64,000 nt of DNA. Origin: Okibacterium sp. HSC-33S16 (GTDB lineage Bacteria > Actinomycetota > Actinomycetes > Actinomycetales > Microbacteriaceae). The stretch spans positions 1 through 64,000 of the forward strand of contig NZ_JALJZZ010000003.1 of NCBI RefSeq assembly GCF_024171565.1. Direction: 5' to 3'. Under the pieces are notes generated by a model. It searched no databases. It was not told the DNA's origin and worked only from the letters and a program-made list of their open reading frames with translations. The position numbers and the translations under genes are program-made. Below are positions 3,116 to 54,967 of this stretch, piece after piece. The stretch's first letter is position 1; each line of letters opens with the position of its first letter.

Positions 3116-3221
3116 GTCGGAACTTCTCTCGTTTTCAGGCGAGCTCCGGGGTAGCCGCGACCGGCGCAGAGCGCCGTTCGAGCCGCGCCACCCGGCACAC
3201 CTGAGCGTGCCGACCGTCGCG

Positions 3222-3367
3222 CGTGCTGCCTCCCATCCGGACTGAGCGTTGCCTAAGCAACCCATTACCGTCGGTGCTGGAATTTCACCAGCTCAACCAT
3301 TCGCACTGCTGCGAACGACTCGCGGACTATCACCGCCGGTTCGGACTTTCACCGACCCCGGAGCACG
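3222..3367 (-). promoter_or_regulatory. FMN riboswitch (RFN element)
   Basis: Read on the minus strand, the region contains the hallmark RFN blocks: GGTGAAAGTCCG near 3350, CCGGCGGTGATAGTCCGCGA near 3330, GGTGAAATTCCAGCACCGAC near 3280 and AGTCCGGATGGGAG near 3235. The closing stem P1 is GTGCT (3366-3362) with AGCAC (3227-3223). It ends about 105 bases before the ribD ATG. By family knowledge it binds FMN and lowers expression of the downstream rib genes; in actinobacteria control is often translational. I see no clear intrinsic terminator between it and ribD, which agrees with control of translation, but this is inference. Confidence 0.95.
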
Positions 3368-3454
3368 TTTCTTGTGTCTATCGTAGGCTCAACGCAGCGC
3401 GAGCGGTTCTATTCCTGACGAACTGTGTCGATTCTGTATGCGGGGCCGAGGCGT

Positions 3455-28723: not shown

Positions 28724-28947
28724 CGGACGGAAATCGTGCCGGGAGAAGGATCGGCGACCGTCCGCTTGCCATATACGACGCTGATTTCCGTGTCTCGGGA
28801 CGTTGGAGTGGCACGTCATCTTTGCCGCCGTGCACGGAATTTGTGGCGCCGCGCACGGAGATCGCGCGGCCAGGCACGGAACTCGCGCCGAGGAAAGGAT
28901 CGGCGAAGGAATACTTGCCTTCTGTGGCGCTGATTTCCGTGTCTCGG
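28724..28947. repeat. Degenerate inverted/direct repeat array (core GCACGGAAATC)
   Basis: The 482-base gap between ptsI and sdhB (28697-29178) has no gene. GGACGGAAATCG (28725), GCACGGAATTTG (28832), GCACGGAGATCG (28853) and GCACGGAACTCG (28874) are plus copies, the last three 21 bases apart. The reverse form GCTGATTTCCGTGTCTCGG occurs at 28780 and 28929. Flanks repeat too: GAAGGATCGGCGA at 28745 and GAAAGGATCGGCGAAGG at 28892, each followed by CTTGCC and the reverse core. Architecture resembles the other arrays, but unit and spacing differ. Confidence 0.6.
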
Positions 28948-28950
28948 AGC

Positions 28951-29000
28951 GTTGAGGAGCGTTGAGGAGCGTTGAGGAGTATTGAGGAGCGTTGAGGTGT
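28951..29000. repeat. Five tandem 10-bp repeats (GTTGAGGAGC)
   Basis: Starting exactly at 28951 the sequence reads GTTGAGGAGC twice, then GTTGAGGAGT, ATTGAGGAGC and GTTGAGGTGT. It directly abuts the second reverse core of the preceding array. It is the only short-unit tandem repeat I see in the window, and copy number may vary between strains. Confidence 0.8.
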
Positions 29001-40821: not shown

Positions 40822-42115
40822 TGCAACGCTCGAGGCGTTCGACGCGGTTGACCTCATCCGCACGAAGCGCGATAAAGGCGAATTAACGACGGATGCCATC
40901 AACTGGCTGATCGACGCATACACGCGTGAATATGTCGGTAACGAACAAATGGCCGCGCTGGCCATGGCCATTCTTCTCAACGGCATGAGCCGTCGCGAGA
41001 TCCGTGACCTCACCCTCGCGATGATCGCGTCCGGCGAGACCATGGACTTTTCCGGCCTCGGCAAGACCACCGTCGACAAGCACTCGACCGGTGGCGTCGG
41101 TGACAAGATCACCCTGCCGCTCATGCCCCTCGTCGCGTCGTTCGGTGTCGCCGTTCCGCAGCTCTCGGGCCGTGGGCTCGGCCACACCGGCGGGACGCTC
41201 GACAAGCTCGAGTCGATTCCCGGCTGGCGCGCTGACATCTCCAACGAGCAGATGTTCGACATCCTCCGCGACGTCGGCGGTGTCATCTGCGCCGCGGGCA
41301 AGGGACTGGCTCCGGCCGACAAGCGACTCTACGCACTGCGCGACATCACCGGAACCGTCGAGGCCATCCCGCTCATTGCCTCCAGCATCATGTCGAAGAA
41401 GATCGCCGAGGGCACCGCTGCGCTCGTGCTCGACGTGAAGTTCGGCTCCGGCGCGTTCATGCAGGACTATTCCAAGGCCGAGGAGCTCGCGCGCACCATG
41501 GTGTCGCTTGGCCAGGACGCCGGGGTGAAGACCTCGGCGCTGCTCACCAACATGAGCGTGCCGCTCGGACGTGCCATCGGTAACGCCAACGAGGTGCGCG
41601 AGTCGGTTGAGGTGCTCGCCGGTGGCGGTCCAGCCGACATCGTCGAACTCACCGTTGCGCTCGCGCGCGAGATGCTGACCCTCGCTGGCCAGCCGGACGC
41701 TGATGTTGAGGAAGCGCTCAAGGACGGTCGCGCCATGGACACCTGGCGTCGCTCGATTCTCGCCCAGGGCGGCGACCCCGACGCGGCGCTCCCAATGGCG
41801 CGCGAAACCCACACCGTGACCGCTGAGGCCGACGGCATCCTGGTCCGACAGGACGCGCTGCCCTTCGGCATTGCCGCGTGGCGACTCGGCGCTGGCCGGG
41901 CTCGTGCGCAGGACCCGGTGCTGCACGCCTCGGGCATCGACCTGCACGCCAAGCCGGGCGACGTTGTGCGCGCGGGAGACCCGCTGTTCACGCTCTCGGC
42001 CGACGACGCTGGGCGGTTCCCGCGCGCGCTCGAAGCACTCGAGGGTGCGTTCGAGTTGGCTGCTCCCGATACCGCGTTCACGCCTGAGCCGTTGGTGCGC
42101 GCCCGCATCGAGTAG
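40814..42115 (+). CDS. deoA: Thymidine phosphorylase
   Basis: Splits thymidine/deoxyuridine to base and deoxyribose 1-phosphate. 433 residues; family signature in SGRGLGHTGGTLDKLESIPG, phosphate-binding KHSTGGVGDKITLP and AALVLDVKFGSGAFM. Ends the import/salvage operon; the deoxyribose 1-phosphate would go to the phosphosugar mutase at 46.5 kb. Confidence 0.96.
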   Translation: MTDATLEAFDAVDLIRTKRDKGELTTDAINWLIDAYTREYVGNEQMAALAMAILLNGMSRREIRDLTLAMIASGETMDFSGLGKTTVDKHSTGGVGDKITLPLMPLVASFGVAVPQLSGRGLGHTGGTLDKLESIPGWRADISNEQMFDILRDVGGVICAAGKGLAPADKRLYALRDITGTVEAIPLIASSIMSKKIAEGTAALVLDVKFGSGAFMQDYSKAEELARTMVSLGQDAGVKTSALLTNMSVPLGRAIGNANEVRESVEVLAGGGPADIVELTVALAREMLTLAGQPDADVEEALKDGRAMDTWRRSILAQGGDPDAALPMARETHTVTAEADGILVRQDALPFGIAAWRLGAGRARAQDPVLHASGIDLHAKPGDVVRAGDPLFTLSADDAGRFPRALEALEGAFELAAPDTAFTPEPLVRARIE

Positions 42116-42155
42116 TTCGAGCCGACCGCTCGTGAACTAGCGCCTCGCGCGCCGG

Positions 42156-42420
42156 TCGATTCGTCGGTAAAGGTCATTCGCTGATCGAGCCGTCGATAAG
42201 GGCTCTTTTCTCGCATCGAGGGGACCCTTATCGACGGCTCAATTCGAGGATCAGCCCTTATCGACCAATGGACCGAGCCTCCACCGGCCGTTGATGCGCC
42301 GCGCCCAGACGTCGCTCAGGGCGCGGGGGGCATCGAGTCGTCGATAAGGGTTCTTCGATTCGATCTGTAGGACCCCAACCGACGCCTCGAACCGGCGAAC
42401 GACCCTTAACGACGCCTCGA
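42156..42420. repeat. Double bidirectional 30-bp-period repeat array (unit ACCCTTATCGACGNNTCGA)
   Basis: The 290 gene-free bases after deoA are almost filled by the unit also seen at 8.9 kb. Minus copies (TCGANNCGTCGATAAGGGT) begin at 42156, 42185 and, decayed, 42216; plus copies at 42224 and 42254. A second set follows: minus at about 42304 (decayed), 42333 and about 42360 (decayed), plus at 42372 and 42402. Neighbours within an arm are 29-31 bases apart. Adjacent minus and plus copies can form long hairpins. Confidence 0.75.
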
Positions 42421-43362
42421 ACCCGCCGAGCCACCCGCGCTCGGTATGGACGGCGGCCCGGGCCATCCGCGCATACGGAATCGACGCTCGGTCCGAACGA
42501 TGACATTGTCCAGGTCGACAAGGTCATCGCCGGTGAAGTACACCATGCTCCAGTTCTCGTCGACGGCATCGTTCCCTCGCCGCACGTCGTTGCGCCACTG
42601 CCGACGGTCCGTTCGGTGGTGGTCCCCCTGATATTCGAGCCCAATCAGATACTCCGGATAGGCAAGATCGATCTCGATATTCCGTCCACTGATCTCGAGA
42701 CGAACCCCATAGTTAGGTTCTGGATTCGGCAAGTGACTCGCCACGAGCGCGAGCCGAACCAAAGTCTCGGGCCGAGACCGCGAGCGATCGCTGAGCGCCT
42801 CGAGTGCGGCTCGCATCCGTACGCGTCCCCGCTGCGACGGGTACTGCGCGACGGTCTCGCGCAACCGCTCCCGGGTCGTCGCCGGGTTCTTGTGCCAGAG
42901 CAGGCTGTCCCCAGCCGCCACGAGATCCGCAAACCCCAGAATCGACGCCAGATCGCACCAGGTGCGCTCGACGTTCGTGACATAAATTCCCTGCAGCGCT
43001 ACGGTGTCGTCGATCCGGAGGGTCGCACTGTGCCCAATCGTGCCCATCGCTCGGGTAGCGCGGGCCGACGGCTCGAACATCACGTGCAGCGGACCCGACT
43101 CCAGTGTCTCGGGCAACGGCATCCCATGCAGCAGCGCGGCGGTGGCGTGGCTGAACGCGTGTGGCCGGGCCGTGCGGCTCGAGAAGGCCACACATCGGTC
43201 GAGCAGGGTGACGCTAACCCCCGGGGCCATCCGCGCTCCACGGAATGGTCGATAGAACTCAGCATTGCGCAATTGCCCGCGCGACAGACCATTCGAGTAC
43301 GCATCTTTCACCGAGAACGAGCGGGGCAAATTCTGAGGGAGCGGTCGCCGAAACGTCATCAT
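42406..43362 (-). CDS. Endonuclease-domain (DUF559/Vsr-like) protein with AbiEi-like N-terminus
   Basis: 318 residues. The N-terminal half has a short helix-turn-helix-like start (SVKDAYSNGLSRGQLRNAEF) and the segment HAFSHATAALLHGMPLP typical of AbiEi-like proteins. The C-terminal half holds a restriction-fold domain: SRPETLVRLAL (Glu), IEIDLAYPEYLIGLEYQGDH (Asp and E-x-Q) and a following DRRQWRNDVRRGNDAV. Such stand-alone genes are common in actinobacteria and their role is not settled. Its 3' end reaches into the last unit of the repeat array. ATGs at 43362 and 43359 are adjacent. Confidence 0.75.
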   Translation of the reverse strand: MMTFRRPLPQNLPRSFSVKDAYSNGLSRGQLRNAEFYRPFRGARMAPGVSVTLLDRCVAFSSRTARPHAFSHATAALLHGMPLPETLESGPLHVMFEPSARATRAMGTIGHSATLRIDDTVALQGIYVTNVERTWCDLASILGFADLVAAGDSLLWHKNPATTRERLRETVAQYPSQRGRVRMRAALEALSDRSRSRPETLVRLALVASHLPNPEPNYGVRLEISGRNIEIDLAYPEYLIGLEYQGDHHRTDRRQWRNDVRRGNDAVDENWSMVYFTGDDLVDLDNVIVRTERRFRMRGWPGPPSIPSAGGSAGSRRR

Positions 43363-50667: not shown

Positions 50668-52542
50668 GTGATGGCTAGTCGCCAGGATTTCGCTCGGCGG
50701 GTGACCGCTCGGGTTCCCGCTCGATGGCGCGGCTGGCACCTCAGCGCGTTGCCGCGGCTGCTTGCCTCTGCGCCGCCCGCCGTGATCCTCATCGTCGGTC
50801 TGGCCGTGGCTGTCCTCGGGGCACTCATCGTGTTACGGCCGCTCACCTCGTTGTTCCTGCTCGGGCTCTACGTCGGCATCAGCGCCGTGGTGTCCGGCAT
50901 CGCCACATTGCTCGCCGACGGCTGGCCACCCCGGTGGTGGCGGTGGCCGCTCGCCGTGCTGTGGGTGCTCGGCGGCGTGGTTGTGCTGGTCTGGCTTGGC
51001 CGCAGCCTCGAGTTGTTGCCGAGGGCGCTCGCGCTGCTGCTCCTCGTCGGCGGCCTAGCCTCCTTCGGTGACGCGGTGTCTCGGGGCCGGATCACGCAGC
51101 GGGTGCTCGCGGCCTGCTGGGGTGGCGCCCAAATGGTCTTCGGGTTCCTGTCCCTGAGCTGGCCGGATGCCACCCTGCTGGTGGTCGCGGTCGTCTTTGG
51201 CGTGCGCACAATTGGGTTCGGAGCCGCGTTGCTGGTCCGCGGTGGCCGAGAATGGGCGCGGGCGGCCAGCCCGGAAGCTTTGCCAGTACCGTCGCCGAAG
51301 GTCGACCGCCGGCGAACCCTGCTGGCCGACTGTGGCCGCGGGGTCCTCGCGCTCGTCCTCGTCATCACGGCCTCGGCGGGCTGGTGGGTCAACGACTGGC
51401 TCTCTGGCGGTGCGATCGTCGTCGACGCGTTCTACTACCCGCCGTCCAACGTCCCGGATGGTCACGGTAGGCTCATCCGCTCAGACAACTACGCCGGTGA
51501 AATTCCCGAGGGCGGGACGGTGCAACGAATCCTGTATACGACGCGGGACGCCAACGGCGGGGATGCGGTTGCGAGCGGTCTGGTCATTCGTCCCACCGAT
51601 CCGCCACCGGGTCCCCGGCCGGTCGTGATCTGGAATCACGGCACCACGGGTGTCGCGCAAGCCTGCGCCCCGAGCCTGCGGAGGAAAGCGGCAACCGAGT
51701 GGGACATCCCGGCCGTGGAAGAAGCGCTCGATCGTGGATGGGTCGTTGTTGCGTCCGACTATTCCGGTCAGGGTGCGCCCGGGAAGTTCCCCTATTTGAT
51801 CGGCCGCGGTGAAGCGCGATCGTCGTTGGACGCGGTGCTGGCAGCGGGCGAACTTGAGGACCTTGTGCTGTCGCCAGACACGCTCGTATGGGGTCACTCC
51901 CAAGGCGGTCATGCCGCGTTGTGGACGACGCAGATTGCCGAGGAGTACACGCCGGGACTAACGATTCTTGGGACGGCTGCTCTGGCGCCTGCGGCCGACC
52001 CGTATGCGCTCGGCGAAGAGTTCACCCGGGGCTCCGCCTCCCCGCAACTGACATTGCTGATCTCCTGGGTCCTTGTGCCGTACTCGGAGACCTACGCAGA
52101 GATCGACCTGCGTGAGCATGTCGCGACCAGCGGTCGATTGCTCGTGCGCGAGATGACGCAGCGGTGTCCGACCGAGCCGGGGGTGCTGGTGTCAGTGTTC
52201 ACCGCGCTCGGTGTGGAGGTCGACCGACCGCTGTATGTCGGTGATCTCACCGATGGAGCGTTGGGTCGTCGATTGCAGGAGAACGCGGCCACCGGCCCGT
52301 TCGGCACACCGCTGTTCGTGGCATGGGGTGCTGAGGATGAGGTGCTGCCCACCTCGTTGCAGCGGGACTTCGTCGCCCAGCAGTGCGCGAATGGCGAACG
52401 GGTGCGGTGGGCGGAATATCCCGGCTACGGTCACCTGCGCATCCTGCAACCGAAGTCGAAGTTCCTCCCTGAACTCATCGATTGGTCGGATGCGCTTCTC
52501 GACCGCGACAACAGTGAGCCGCTGGACGACTGCGTCCGCTGA
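50668..52542 (+). CDS. Membrane protein with HdeD-like domain fused to a secretory-lipase-like hydrolase
   Basis: 624 residues. The first ~200 hold six membrane segments in two sets of three (HdeD/DUF308-like: AVILIVGLAVAVLGALIVL, LFLLGLYVGISAVVSGIATL and so on), then one more span (~225-245). The remaining ~370 residues are an alpha/beta hydrolase of the secretory-lipase type: WNHGTTGVAQACAPS, nucleophile Ser411 in VWGHSQGGHAALW, late Asp in VAWGAEDEVLP and His in YPGYGHLRI. The hydrolase should face outward. GTG 50668 and ATG 50671 are adjacent. Substrate unknown (lipid, ester or polyester). Confidence 0.82.
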   Translation: MMASRQDFARRVTARVPARWRGWHLSALPRLLASAPPAVILIVGLAVAVLGALIVLRPLTSLFLLGLYVGISAVVSGIATLLADGWPPRWWRWPLAVLWVLGGVVVLVWLGRSLELLPRALALLLLVGGLASFGDAVSRGRITQRVLAACWGGAQMVFGFLSLSWPDATLLVVAVVFGVRTIGFGAALLVRGGREWARAASPEALPVPSPKVDRRRTLLADCGRGVLALVLVITASAGWWVNDWLSGGAIVVDAFYYPPSNVPDGHGRLIRSDNYAGEIPEGGTVQRILYTTRDANGGDAVASGLVIRPTDPPPGPRPVVIWNHGTTGVAQACAPSLRRKAATEWDIPAVEEALDRGWVVVASDYSGQGAPGKFPYLIGRGEARSSLDAVLAAGELEDLVLSPDTLVWGHSQGGHAALWTTQIAEEYTPGLTILGTAALAPAADPYALGEEFTRGSASPQLTLLISWVLVPYSETYAEIDLREHVATSGRLLVREMTQRCPTEPGVLVSVFTALGVEVDRPLYVGDLTDGALGRRLQENAATGPFGTPLFVAWGAEDEVLPTSLQRDFVAQQCANGERVRWAEYPGYGHLRILQPKSKFLPELIDWSDALLDRDNSEPLDDCVR

Positions 52543-52646
52543 CAGCTGGCGTCGAAGCCCGCTGCTCACGCTCAATGCTGGGCTCTGCGCTTCGGGCGAG
52601 ACATGTCCCTCGCCACTGCCAACGTCTCGGGGCGAAAAGCGCGGTT

Positions 52647-53110
52647 ATCGCTCGGCCCCAACTGGCGCTGCGTCCCATTGCTTAGCTTGTTTCGGTGGAC
52701 CCCATGGTTGCTCGGGCAGGTACGGCGGTGCGGCCTATTCCTCGGCCAGTTATGGCTGTTCGCGCTGTTGCTCGGCCAGTAACGGTCGCCCCATCGTTGC
52801 TCGGGCATTTCGGGCTGGACTTTGAGCAAAAACTCGACCCAAAATGACCGAGCAATTGGGCGACTGACCGTTTGTGGCCGAGGAGGTCGATTTGACTGAC
52901 CGGTTCTGACCGAGCAATGGGCGTCTCGCCGTTTGTGTCCGAGCAAATCGGGGGCGAACGACCGGTTCTGCCCGAGCAATCGGGTGTTCCGCCGTTTCCG
53001 TCCGAGCAAATCTGAGCCAACGACCGTTTGTGTCTGACCAACGAGACTCCGACCGTCGTGCTGGACGACTGCGGAGGAAAGCGACCGGTTCTGTCTGAAT
53101 AACACGGTGG
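52647..53110. repeat. Large bidirectional ~31-bp-period repeat array (core CCGAGCAA)
   Basis: The gene-free stretch 52543-53200 lies between convergent genes. Minus copies (TTGCTCGG core) occur at about 52647, 52677, 52707, 52737, 52767 and 52796, 29-30 bases apart. Plus copies (CCGAGCAA core) follow at about 52848, 52878, 52910, 52939, 52972, 53002, and decayed ones at 53034, 53061 and 53095. Most plus units begin GACCG or GCCG, and type A (GACCGGTTCTGNCCGAGCAAT) alternates with type B (GCCGTTTGTGTCCGAGCAAA). The two arms face each other around 52820. Earlier bases (52560-52640) may hold two further decayed minus copies. Confidence 0.75.
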
Positions 53111-53143: not shown

Positions 53144-53181
53144 CAGAAGCCGGCCCGCCCCCTGGGCGGAACCGGCTTCTG
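53144..53181. terminator. Terminator after the carboxylase alpha gene
   Basis: CAGAAGCCGG (53144-53153) pairs with CCGGCTTCTG (53172-53181), with an inner CCGCCC/GGGCGG stem. It lies 20 bases beyond the stop of the minus-strand carboxylase gene and could also stop transcripts coming from the left. Confidence 0.85.
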
Positions 53182-53200: not shown

Positions 53201-54967
53201 CTACGCGTCGGTGATCGTCAGCAGCTGGTGTCCACTCGACACCGTCGTGCCAACCGTCGCACTGATGTCGCCGATCGTGCCATCCTTGTGCGCCGTAATC
53301 GGCTGCTCCATCTTCATGGCCTCGAGCACAACGACGAGGTCACCCTTGACGACGCGCTGGCCGGCCTCCACCGCGAGCTTGATCACCGTAGCCTGCATGG
53401 GCGAGGCCACCGAGTCACCGGTCGCGCTTGACACCGCGCCGCTGCCGCCGTGCCGACGCGGCGCGGCGGTGAGCTGGCGGCTCCCGGCCGCGGCGGGGAG
53501 GAGGCTCGTCGGCAGGCTGACCTCGATGCGCTTGCCCTCGACCTCGACGACAACACTGTGGCGATTCATCGTCGGCTTGGGAGCGTCGGCTTCACCGTTC
53601 CACGGCTCGATGTCGTTGACGAACTCGGTCTCGATCCAGCGGGTGTAGACGCCGAAGGTGCCATCCTCGGCCGTGAACGCCGGGTCGCGCACGATCTTGC
53701 GGTGGAACGGGATGACGGTGGGGAGGCCGGCGACCTCGAACTCATCAAGGGCGCGACGCGAGCGCTCGAGCGCTTCGGTGCGGTCTTTGCCGGTGACGAT
53801 GATCTTGCCGAGCAGCGAGTCGAACGCGCCGGAGATCTCGTCGCCAGCCGTGACGCCGGAGTCAAGGCGGATGCCGGGTCCGCCGAACGTCTTGAACACG
53901 TGGATCGGTCCCGGCTGCGGCAGGAACCCGCGGCCCGGGTCTTCACCGTTGATGCGGAACTCGAAGGAGTGGCCCTGCGGCTTCGGGTCGTCGTAGTCGA
54001 GCGTGCCGCCCTCGGCGAGACGGAACTGCTCGCGCACCAGGTCGATGCCCGTGATCTCCTCGGAGACCGGGTGCTCCACCTGCAGGCGTGTGTTGACTTC
54101 GAGGAACGACACCGTGCCGTCCTTGCCGATGAGGAACTCGCAGGTGCCGGCGCCGACGTAGCCAACCTCCTTGAGGATGGCCTTGGACGAGCTGTAGAGC
54201 AGCTCAACCTGCTCGTCGCTGAGGAACGGCGCCGGTGCCTCTTCCACGAGCTTCTGGTGCCTACGCTGCAGCGAGCAGTCGCGGGTGGAGACAACAACAA
54301 CGTTGCCGTGCGCGTCGGCGAGGCACTGGGTCTCGACGTGTCGCGGCTGGTCGAGGTACTTCTCGACGAAGCACTCGCCCCGACCGAACGCCGCAATCGC
54401 CTCACGGGTCGCGGACTCGAACGCTTCAGGCACCTCGGACAGTTCACGGGCGACCTTGAGCCCACGACCGCCGCCGCCGAATGCCGCCTTGATGGCGACG
54501 GGCAGCCCGTGCTCCTCAACGAACGCGAGCACCTCGTCGGCCCCGGACACCGGGTTGAGCGTTCCGGGGGCGAGCGGGGCGCCGACCTTCTGCGCCACGT
54601 GGCGTGCGGAAACCTTGTCGCCGAGCTGTTCGATGGCCTCGGGAGAGGGGCCGATCCAGGTGATGCCGGCGCCGATGACGGCCCGCGCGAAGTCGGCGTT
54701 CTCGGCCAGGAAGCCGTAACCGGGGTGGATCGCGTCTGCTCCGGAGCGGCGGGCGAGAGAGAGGATCTTGTCAATGACGAGGTAGGTTTCGGCGCTCGTG
54801 GAGCCGCCAAGCGCGTACGCCTCGTCAGCGAGGGTAACGTGCAGGGCGTCCCGGTCCTGGTCGGCGTAGACGGCGACCGAGGCGATCCCACTGTCGCGCG
54901 CCGCGCGAATCACTCGAACGGCGATTTCGCCTCTGTTTGCTATGAGAACCTTCGTTATACGCGACAC
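53201..54967 (-). CDS. Acyl-CoA carboxylase alpha subunit (biotin carboxylase + BCCP)
   Basis: 588 residues. Residues 1-450 form a biotin carboxylase ([23 protein letters not shown]-grasp loop [33 protein letters not shown]); the last ~70 are a biotin carrier domain with the biotinyl-Lys552 in [10 protein letters not shown]. Carboxylates biotin for use by the beta subunit at 60.7 kb to make malonyl- or methylmalonyl-CoA. GTG start at 54967 after AGGGAA. The locus is split: maf, a methyltransferase and a two-component system lie between it and accE/accD. Confidence 0.95.

Follow-up and report, generated by a model that had tools for sequence, protein, structure and literature searches.

The systems closest to the arrays studied here in general anatomy are the REP/BIME elements with their RAYTs, which, according to PMC2817692, are dispersed, extragenic and species-specific repeats that form inverted, regularly spaced clusters. 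The arrays share these traits. By contrast, their unit is asymmetric, their linkers are kept in length and not in sequence, their steps differ by about one helical turn, and many of their sites are occupied in more than one species. The arrays lack the palindromic unit, and no RAYT (Y1 transposase) was found in six genomes.

For a symmetric and helically periodic site, gyrase is the best known analogue. E. coli gyrase sites are described in PMC6379681 as a symmetric 130-bp pattern with a 10.75-bp GC period, and PMC12324340 gives a 10–11-bp GC preference for the gyrases of three species. The Mu SGS and BIME-2 sites (PMC6379681) resemble our arrays in their central symmetry, in a composition period of about one turn and in their link to transcription. 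The arrays differ from such sites in having a strong and specific 25-bp word that is repeated outward.

Lrp-type wrapping regulators use short palindromic sites near promoters. Their phased operators are similar to the arrays in that several sites of one protein lie about three turns apart, whereas the sites described here are asymmetric and located at 3' ends. DNA uptake sequences likewise occur as inverted pairs downstream of genes, with one dialect per species; the arrays, by contrast, have far fewer copies, a longer word and phased clusters. In a literature search that covered mainly openly readable journals, no report of the present repeat was found.

The window, i.e. the whole stretch of 64,000 nucleotides analysed here, contains a block of repeats between two genes. 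With about even confidence we propose that this block belongs to a genus-specific family of extragenic arrays, and that each array is a row of asymmetric sites of about 25 bp for one putative sequence-specific protein that binds double-stranded DNA. Members of the family have in common their motif, the outward orientation of the units, a fixed 41-bp core, one-turn spacing and a preference for gene ends, and they show sites shared between species as well as species dialects.

The array in the window

The array (Table 1) fills the gap between the stops of two convergent genes. In the minus arm (52641–52815) the strongest autocorrelation is at lags 60, 30 and 90, in the plus arm (52841–53105) at lags 62, 61, 63 and 32, and in neither arm was the maximum reached by any of 500 dinucleotide shuffles. 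When both arms are taken as one stretch, lag 30 ranks highest and 1 of 500 shuffles reaches the maximum. The array of units about 30 bases apart that had been reported in a first-pass annotation is thus real, and the peak near 30–31 bases on which that report depended is present. When the window was scanned in raw form, without shuffles, the top 15 autocorrelation stretches (lags 25–45) all lie outside the array and are presumed to reflect codon rhythm. The higher period of 62 bases previously noted in the plus arm is borne out both by the lags given above and by TRF, which finds a 62-bp period at 52898–53026.

Table 1. Features of the two arrays and their surroundings. Positions are counted from the first nucleotide of the window.
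Feature	Position	Strand	Basis or position-weight score
Flanking gene: membrane protein with hydrolase-like C-terminal part (stop 52542)	50668..52542	+	by eye; no NCBIfam hit
Whole array, weak outer units included	52647..53103	.	autocorrelation and position-weight scan
Weak outermost minus unit	52647..52666	-	13.4
Minus unit	52707..52726	-	21.0
Minus unit	52737..52756	-	19.0
Minus unit	52767..52786	-	25.2
Inner minus unit of core	52796..52815	-	19.6
57-bp core: two divergent units and 21-bp central linker	52798..52854	.	exact match to genus-wide core pattern
Inner plus unit of core, 41 bp from inner minus unit	52837..52856	+	21.6
Plus unit	52867..52886	+	19.3
Plus unit, subtype A	52899..52918	+	24.4
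Plus unit, subtype B	52928..52947	+	23.6
Plus unit, subtype A	52961..52980	+	23.1
Plus unit, subtype B	52991..53010	+	21.9
Plus unit	53023..53042	+	16.5
Weak outermost plus unit	53084..53103	+	11.6
GC-rich stem-loop at 3' end of carboxylase gene, outside array	53145..53180	-	terminator-like by eye
Flanking convergent gene: biotin carboxylase and biotin carrier protein, acetyl/propionyl-CoA carboxylase kind (stop 53201)	53201..54967	-	best hits below curated equivalog cut-offs
Second array, sub-dialect unit RCCCTTATCGACGnCTCRA	42155..42421	.	

The position-weight scan detects four strong minus units, separated by steps of 30, 30 and 29 bases, and seven strong plus units with steps of 30, 32, 29, 33, 30 and 32, in addition to one weak outermost unit on either side. 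Together with decayed copies seen by eye near 52677 and 53054, these account for the six minus and nine plus units counted earlier. Their description as face to face has to be reversed: with their GAGCAA ends directed outward on both sides of the centre, the units stand back to back, the inner ones being 41 bases apart. The earlier description had also overlooked this 41-bp core, a second array in the window and a family that extends over the whole genome.

CRISPR repeats are near-identical, in one orientation and separated by unique spacers, whereas the units are diverged and occur in both orientations, in agreement with the original view. A coding repeat was rejected because the period is not a multiple of three and steps of 28–33 and of 38–42 bases are mixed; steps of about 30 and about 41 misfit such a repeat. 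No decayed insertion sequence was recognised in a search confined to Y1_Tnp. In line with the earlier statement on RNA families, none of those in Rfam attains its gathering score at the array. The sole Rfam match in the window is an FMN riboswitch at 3220–3369 on the minus strand.

Distribution of the array family

A scan of the window's own genome (G000) with the unit pattern revealed clusters spread all over it. Fifteen clusters of at least two units were tabulated from the window and 14 further fetched regions; one of them (L025) has two units only and is without a core. With at most two mismatches, a 57-bp core pattern in which two divergent units flank 21 free bases matches 20 places in G000 and 26, 24, 39, 1 and 16 places, respectively, in five further genomes of the array genus (G001 to G005), and the reversed pattern, which served as control, matches none in all six.

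At no more than one mismatch the core was found in 6 of 299 genomes of the taxonomic family, namely five of the array genus and G008, whose single match is taken for chance. Among 28 matching stretches in a named collection, 27 are from Mycetocola. The remaining stretch belongs to a MAG of Bacteroidales (48% GC); it has one unit when scanned with one dialect and none with the other, and is likewise taken for a chance match. The array family is restricted almost wholly to the genus Mycetocola. Phage and plasmid origins were rejected, as the exact core is present in no viral contigs and the segment 52600–53140 of the window has no plasmid match.

The arrays of G003 (L081–L100) seem denser near dnaA, which was named by eye and lies at the contig start. 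Within 250 kb of that start are 16 of 29 sites, compared with 15.8% expected; once neighbours are merged, a KS test gives p 0.097, and 11 of 21 sites are within 420 kb (p 0.012). On these weak statistics, clustering at the origin is not claimed.

Unit word and spacing rules

The unit consensus, WnYRRCCRTTWGYGACCGAGCARnG, is about 25 bp long and was written from the logo of 548 units of five genomes. By inspection it is asymmetric and not a palindrome. Its near-invariant positions are CC at +1 and +2, G at +9, C at +11 and G at +15. The 20-nucleotide heart of the unit holds 21.7 bits, compared with 2.5–3.5 bits for tandem linkers of 9, 10 and 21 bases and 6.6 bits for the central linker. Linker length is conserved far better than linker sequence.

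Exact divergent pairs whose gap was left free between 5 and 35 bases all had a gap of 21, equivalent to units 41 bp apart (54 of 54 in five genomes, as read from the listing and including local duplicates). For G000, whose loci were collected by searching for a single unit, a spacing of 40–41 was seen in 22 of 24 divergent neighbours. Because the loci of G001–G005 were fetched with a fixed 41-bp pattern, their central spacing is not independent, and independent values are those of G000 and of the free-gap search. At the sole locus of G004, units are few and the divergent step is 21.

Same-strand pairs with a gap left free from 4 to 34 bases gave 128 matches with steps of 28–33, 38–42 or 50–51 (read from the listing). 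Of 126 non-redundant same-strand neighbours, 82 are at 27–34, 39 at 38–42 and 5 at 47–53 bases, and three of the 126 fall at 33–38. These step classes differ by about one helical turn. The commonest clusters in G001 and G005 consist of three units, and whole cores are also present as local tandem copies.

A helical A/T signal at the core

In the A/T power spectrum of 89 arrays a peak at 10.4 bp reaches 3.79, compared with 2.17 ± 0.11 for linker-shuffled arrays and 1.05 for flanks. The linker effect at 10.4 bp persists when the units are masked from −5 to +20 (z +9.9), and it stems from the central linker. Within the central linker, A/T amounts to 74% at 4–5 bases from the dyad and to 25% within 2 bases of it, a pattern reached by none of 300 shuffles. 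These data speak for a dyad-symmetric signal at the core that bends or wraps the DNA. In the 38 tandem linkers of the ~41 spacing nothing is added at 10.4 bp to the signal of the units, the value being attained in 120 of 300 shuffles, and the phase along the arms is a matter of unit spacing alone. Shortening the centre by one or two bases raises the 10.4-bp power from 2.58 to 3.03 and 2.89, respectively, and adding one to five bases lowers it; 41 is therefore not the best phase for A/T.

A periodic A/T signal around a dyad-symmetric centre is also what would be expected if the arrays were strong gyrase sites or intrinsically curved DNA at places where positive supercoils pile up between convergent genes, the unit then being a wrapping signal and not an operator. 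E. coli gyrase sites are likewise symmetric and periodic, and BIME-2 elements are gyrase targets (PMC6379681). Nevertheless, we regard this explanation as very improbable. The gyrase pattern is degenerate, and a 21.7-bit unit with near-invariant positions has a much higher specificity. The arms have no A/T phase beyond the units, and the attraction of gyrase to downstream regions is, according to PMC6379681, not hard-wired. Quantised steps, low-information linkers and the 10.4-bp A/T peak fit best with selection on roughly helical spacing and with a protein binding to double-stranded DNA, both of which had been suggested at the outset.

Position at gene ends

Arrays prefer convergent gaps and the 3' ends of genes. 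With genes called by a home-made codon score at its middle threshold, and with array-free gaps drawn from the same fetched loci, 36 of 75 array gaps are convergent, 28 tandem and 11 divergent, compared with 19, 57 and 31, respectively, of 107 gaps without an array (p 1.7e-5 for the enrichment of convergent gaps). In tandem gaps the array is closer to the 3' end in 23 of 28 cases, the median distance being 38.5 as against 176.5 bases. The other two gene-score thresholds agree on the convergent and 3'-end bias, and earlier gene calls had given a weaker tandem bias (23 of 33, p 0.035). Some 91-bp arrays of G005 (L147, L138) almost fill the space between two stop codons. The functions of neighbouring genes have no common theme among ten proteins encoded in the window and at five other loci.

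The location near stop codons and between convergent genes would equally suit RNA hairpins that serve as bidirectional transcription terminators or stabilise the 3' ends of mRNAs. Core RNA does fold better than shuffles (median z −2.8 to −4.7), because conserved parts of the core are complementary. When the right arms of 91 non-redundant 61-bp cores were shuffled within genomes, the outer unit gave z −1.1 and the linker z 1.6. With G-U pairs allowed, the pairing observed at variable unit positions is reached by 801 of 1000 shuffles and thus shows no excess; that in the central linker is reached by 14 of 1000, a slight excess which speaks weakly for some pairing. On the lack of compensatory pairing at the variable unit positions of these 91 cores, a hairpin or cruciform selected at the units was rejected; the cruciform envisaged in the first-pass annotation is in this respect not supported. 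Of 182 core sides, 1 is followed by a T-rich stretch within 15 nt. Moreover, the many simple arrays of three units leave one unit without a partner, and it is not obvious what steps of helical turns would do in an RNA. At the carboxylase gene a separate stem-loop was seen by eye beyond the array. In view of these points, a function as RNA hairpins appears quite improbable.

The stem-loop of the carboxylase gene has no T tract and is absent from the list of the terminator scan, which yielded one weak terminator-like match in the window versus 0.7 expected. A separate stem-loop was likewise seen by eye at the carboxylase gene of G002.

Shared sites and species dialects

Of the 15 arrays in G000, eleven have one or both neighbouring genes in common with an array in some other species, and seven of them have both; orthology was judged solely by blastp between genes that flank arrays (45% identity, 70% cover). 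In the comparison of orthologous gaps that the first-pass annotation had suggested, the gap at the carboxylase gene holds arrays in G000, G002 and G003, whereas downstream of this gene no unit scored in G001, G004 and G005, nor in 13 loci of other genera of the family (L168–L180). Autocorrelation was uninformative for the carboxylase gaps, as the known array is not outstanding among them (104 of 200 mononucleotide shuffles); G001, G005 and several genera are, which we think is due to coding sequence filling these stretches.

At the end of the G004 carboxylase gene (L167) a different inverted repeat, CAAATTCAGCA / TGCTGAATTTG, was seen by eye, with two plus copies about 20 bp apart. Its host, G004, is almost without the main array family. 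A search for this repeat had no match in 150 genomes; its gap range excluded the copy of G004, and G004 was outside the sample, so that this zero carries no weight.

Units of different species mismatch at 9.99 of 25 positions when their sites are shared and at 10.0 when they are not, as compared with 8.55 for different loci within a genome. With each locus left out in turn and all its units pooled, dialect assigned 72 of 83 loci to their own genome, and 26 of 28 loci at shared sites. Central linkers of 33 shared-site pairs are 47% identical, taking the best of several cores, versus 40% for random cross-species pairs, and the 41 core is missing in one member of 2 out of 35 such pairs. The places of arrays often stay, their words drift together within a species, and their lengths stay.

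Dialects that differ between species despite shared sites are in line with BIME-like mobile repeats, and so are the dispersed, extragenic and inverted arrangement, the local tandem copies of whole cores and the limitation to one genus. Such repeats would be non-autonomous and copied by a putative transposase whose complex would set the spacing, gene ends being tolerated landing sites, and a copying element without host function could give rise to dialects along with turnover of the repeats. Against this stands that many arrays adjoin the same genes in several species, that linkers vary in sequence and keep their length, and that viral and plasmid matches are missing as reported above. A Y1/RAYT transposase was found in none of the six genomes by a search that was positive in 5 of 14 control genomes, and a RAYT-driven REP family (Y1_Tnp) was rejected on this basis. 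The original statement that no transposase explains the array therefore holds for the Y1/RAYT family, the sole family searched. Mobile repeats are, in our judgement, an unlikely explanation. If the arrays were selfish repeats after all, the kept length and free sequence of the linkers would reveal how the copying machine reads DNA.

Proposed mechanism

For an array of sites bound by one protein, which is our preferred reading, the geometry of the units suggests the following model. Double-stranded DNA would be read as words with an orientation, by a protein that depends on a fixed rotation. A dimer would nucleate at the dyad-symmetric core, and further protein molecules would be added on its outer sides, each 3, 4 or 5 helical turns on, which would keep the protein contacts on one face of the DNA. 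At the ends of genes, which are often convergent, the resulting complex may act as a bidirectional roadblock to read-through. Alternatively, it may act as a barrier and hold back supercoils generated by transcription, perhaps in concert with gyrase. We infer a roadblock, insulator or gyrase-linked role at gene ends. Of the interpretation given in the first-pass annotation, selection on spacing and protein binding are retained in this model; a cruciform selected at the units and the face-to-face arrangement are not supported.

It is tempting to speculate that a candidate genus-specific protein reads the 25-bp word, nucleates at the 41-bp core and polymerises outward at gene ends, thereby isolating transcription units, and that co-evolution of protein and word gave rise to the dialects. 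We consider such an undescribed chromosome-architecture system rather doubtful. If our preferred reading is right, phased strips on which a protein docks mark dozens of gene ends in species of one genus. The separation of convergent transcription in compact genomes could then be tested directly on these arrays, which would also keep a natural record of how the specificity of a DNA-binding protein drifts in step across many sites that have stayed in place.

Five clusters were observed within 7 kb of G003 (L099:2257-8812), around transporter, regulator, SAP-domain and sulfatase genes. Among the ten ORFs of this dense region no clear candidate for the binder was found; they encode a transporter, a weak match to a small exporter, a response regulator, a SAP/DUF6434 protein, sulfatase and sulfatase-modifying proteins, and four proteins without a family.

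Second array and other features of the window

The second array in the window follows the same plan, with a 40-bp core and units that end in CTCRA in place of GAGCA. Its first cluster has minus units at 42155 and 42184 and, after a step of 40, plus units at 42224 and 42254. The second has a minus unit at 42332 and, again after a step of 40, plus units at 42372 and 42402 (both by eye). The convergent ORFs around it stop at 42115 and 42406, so that the last unit overlaps the end of the second ORF. The sub-dialect pattern matches 8 places in G000 and few elsewhere.

Elsewhere in the window, a 10-bp tandem repeat, GGAGCGTTGA, is present in five copies at 28946–28997.
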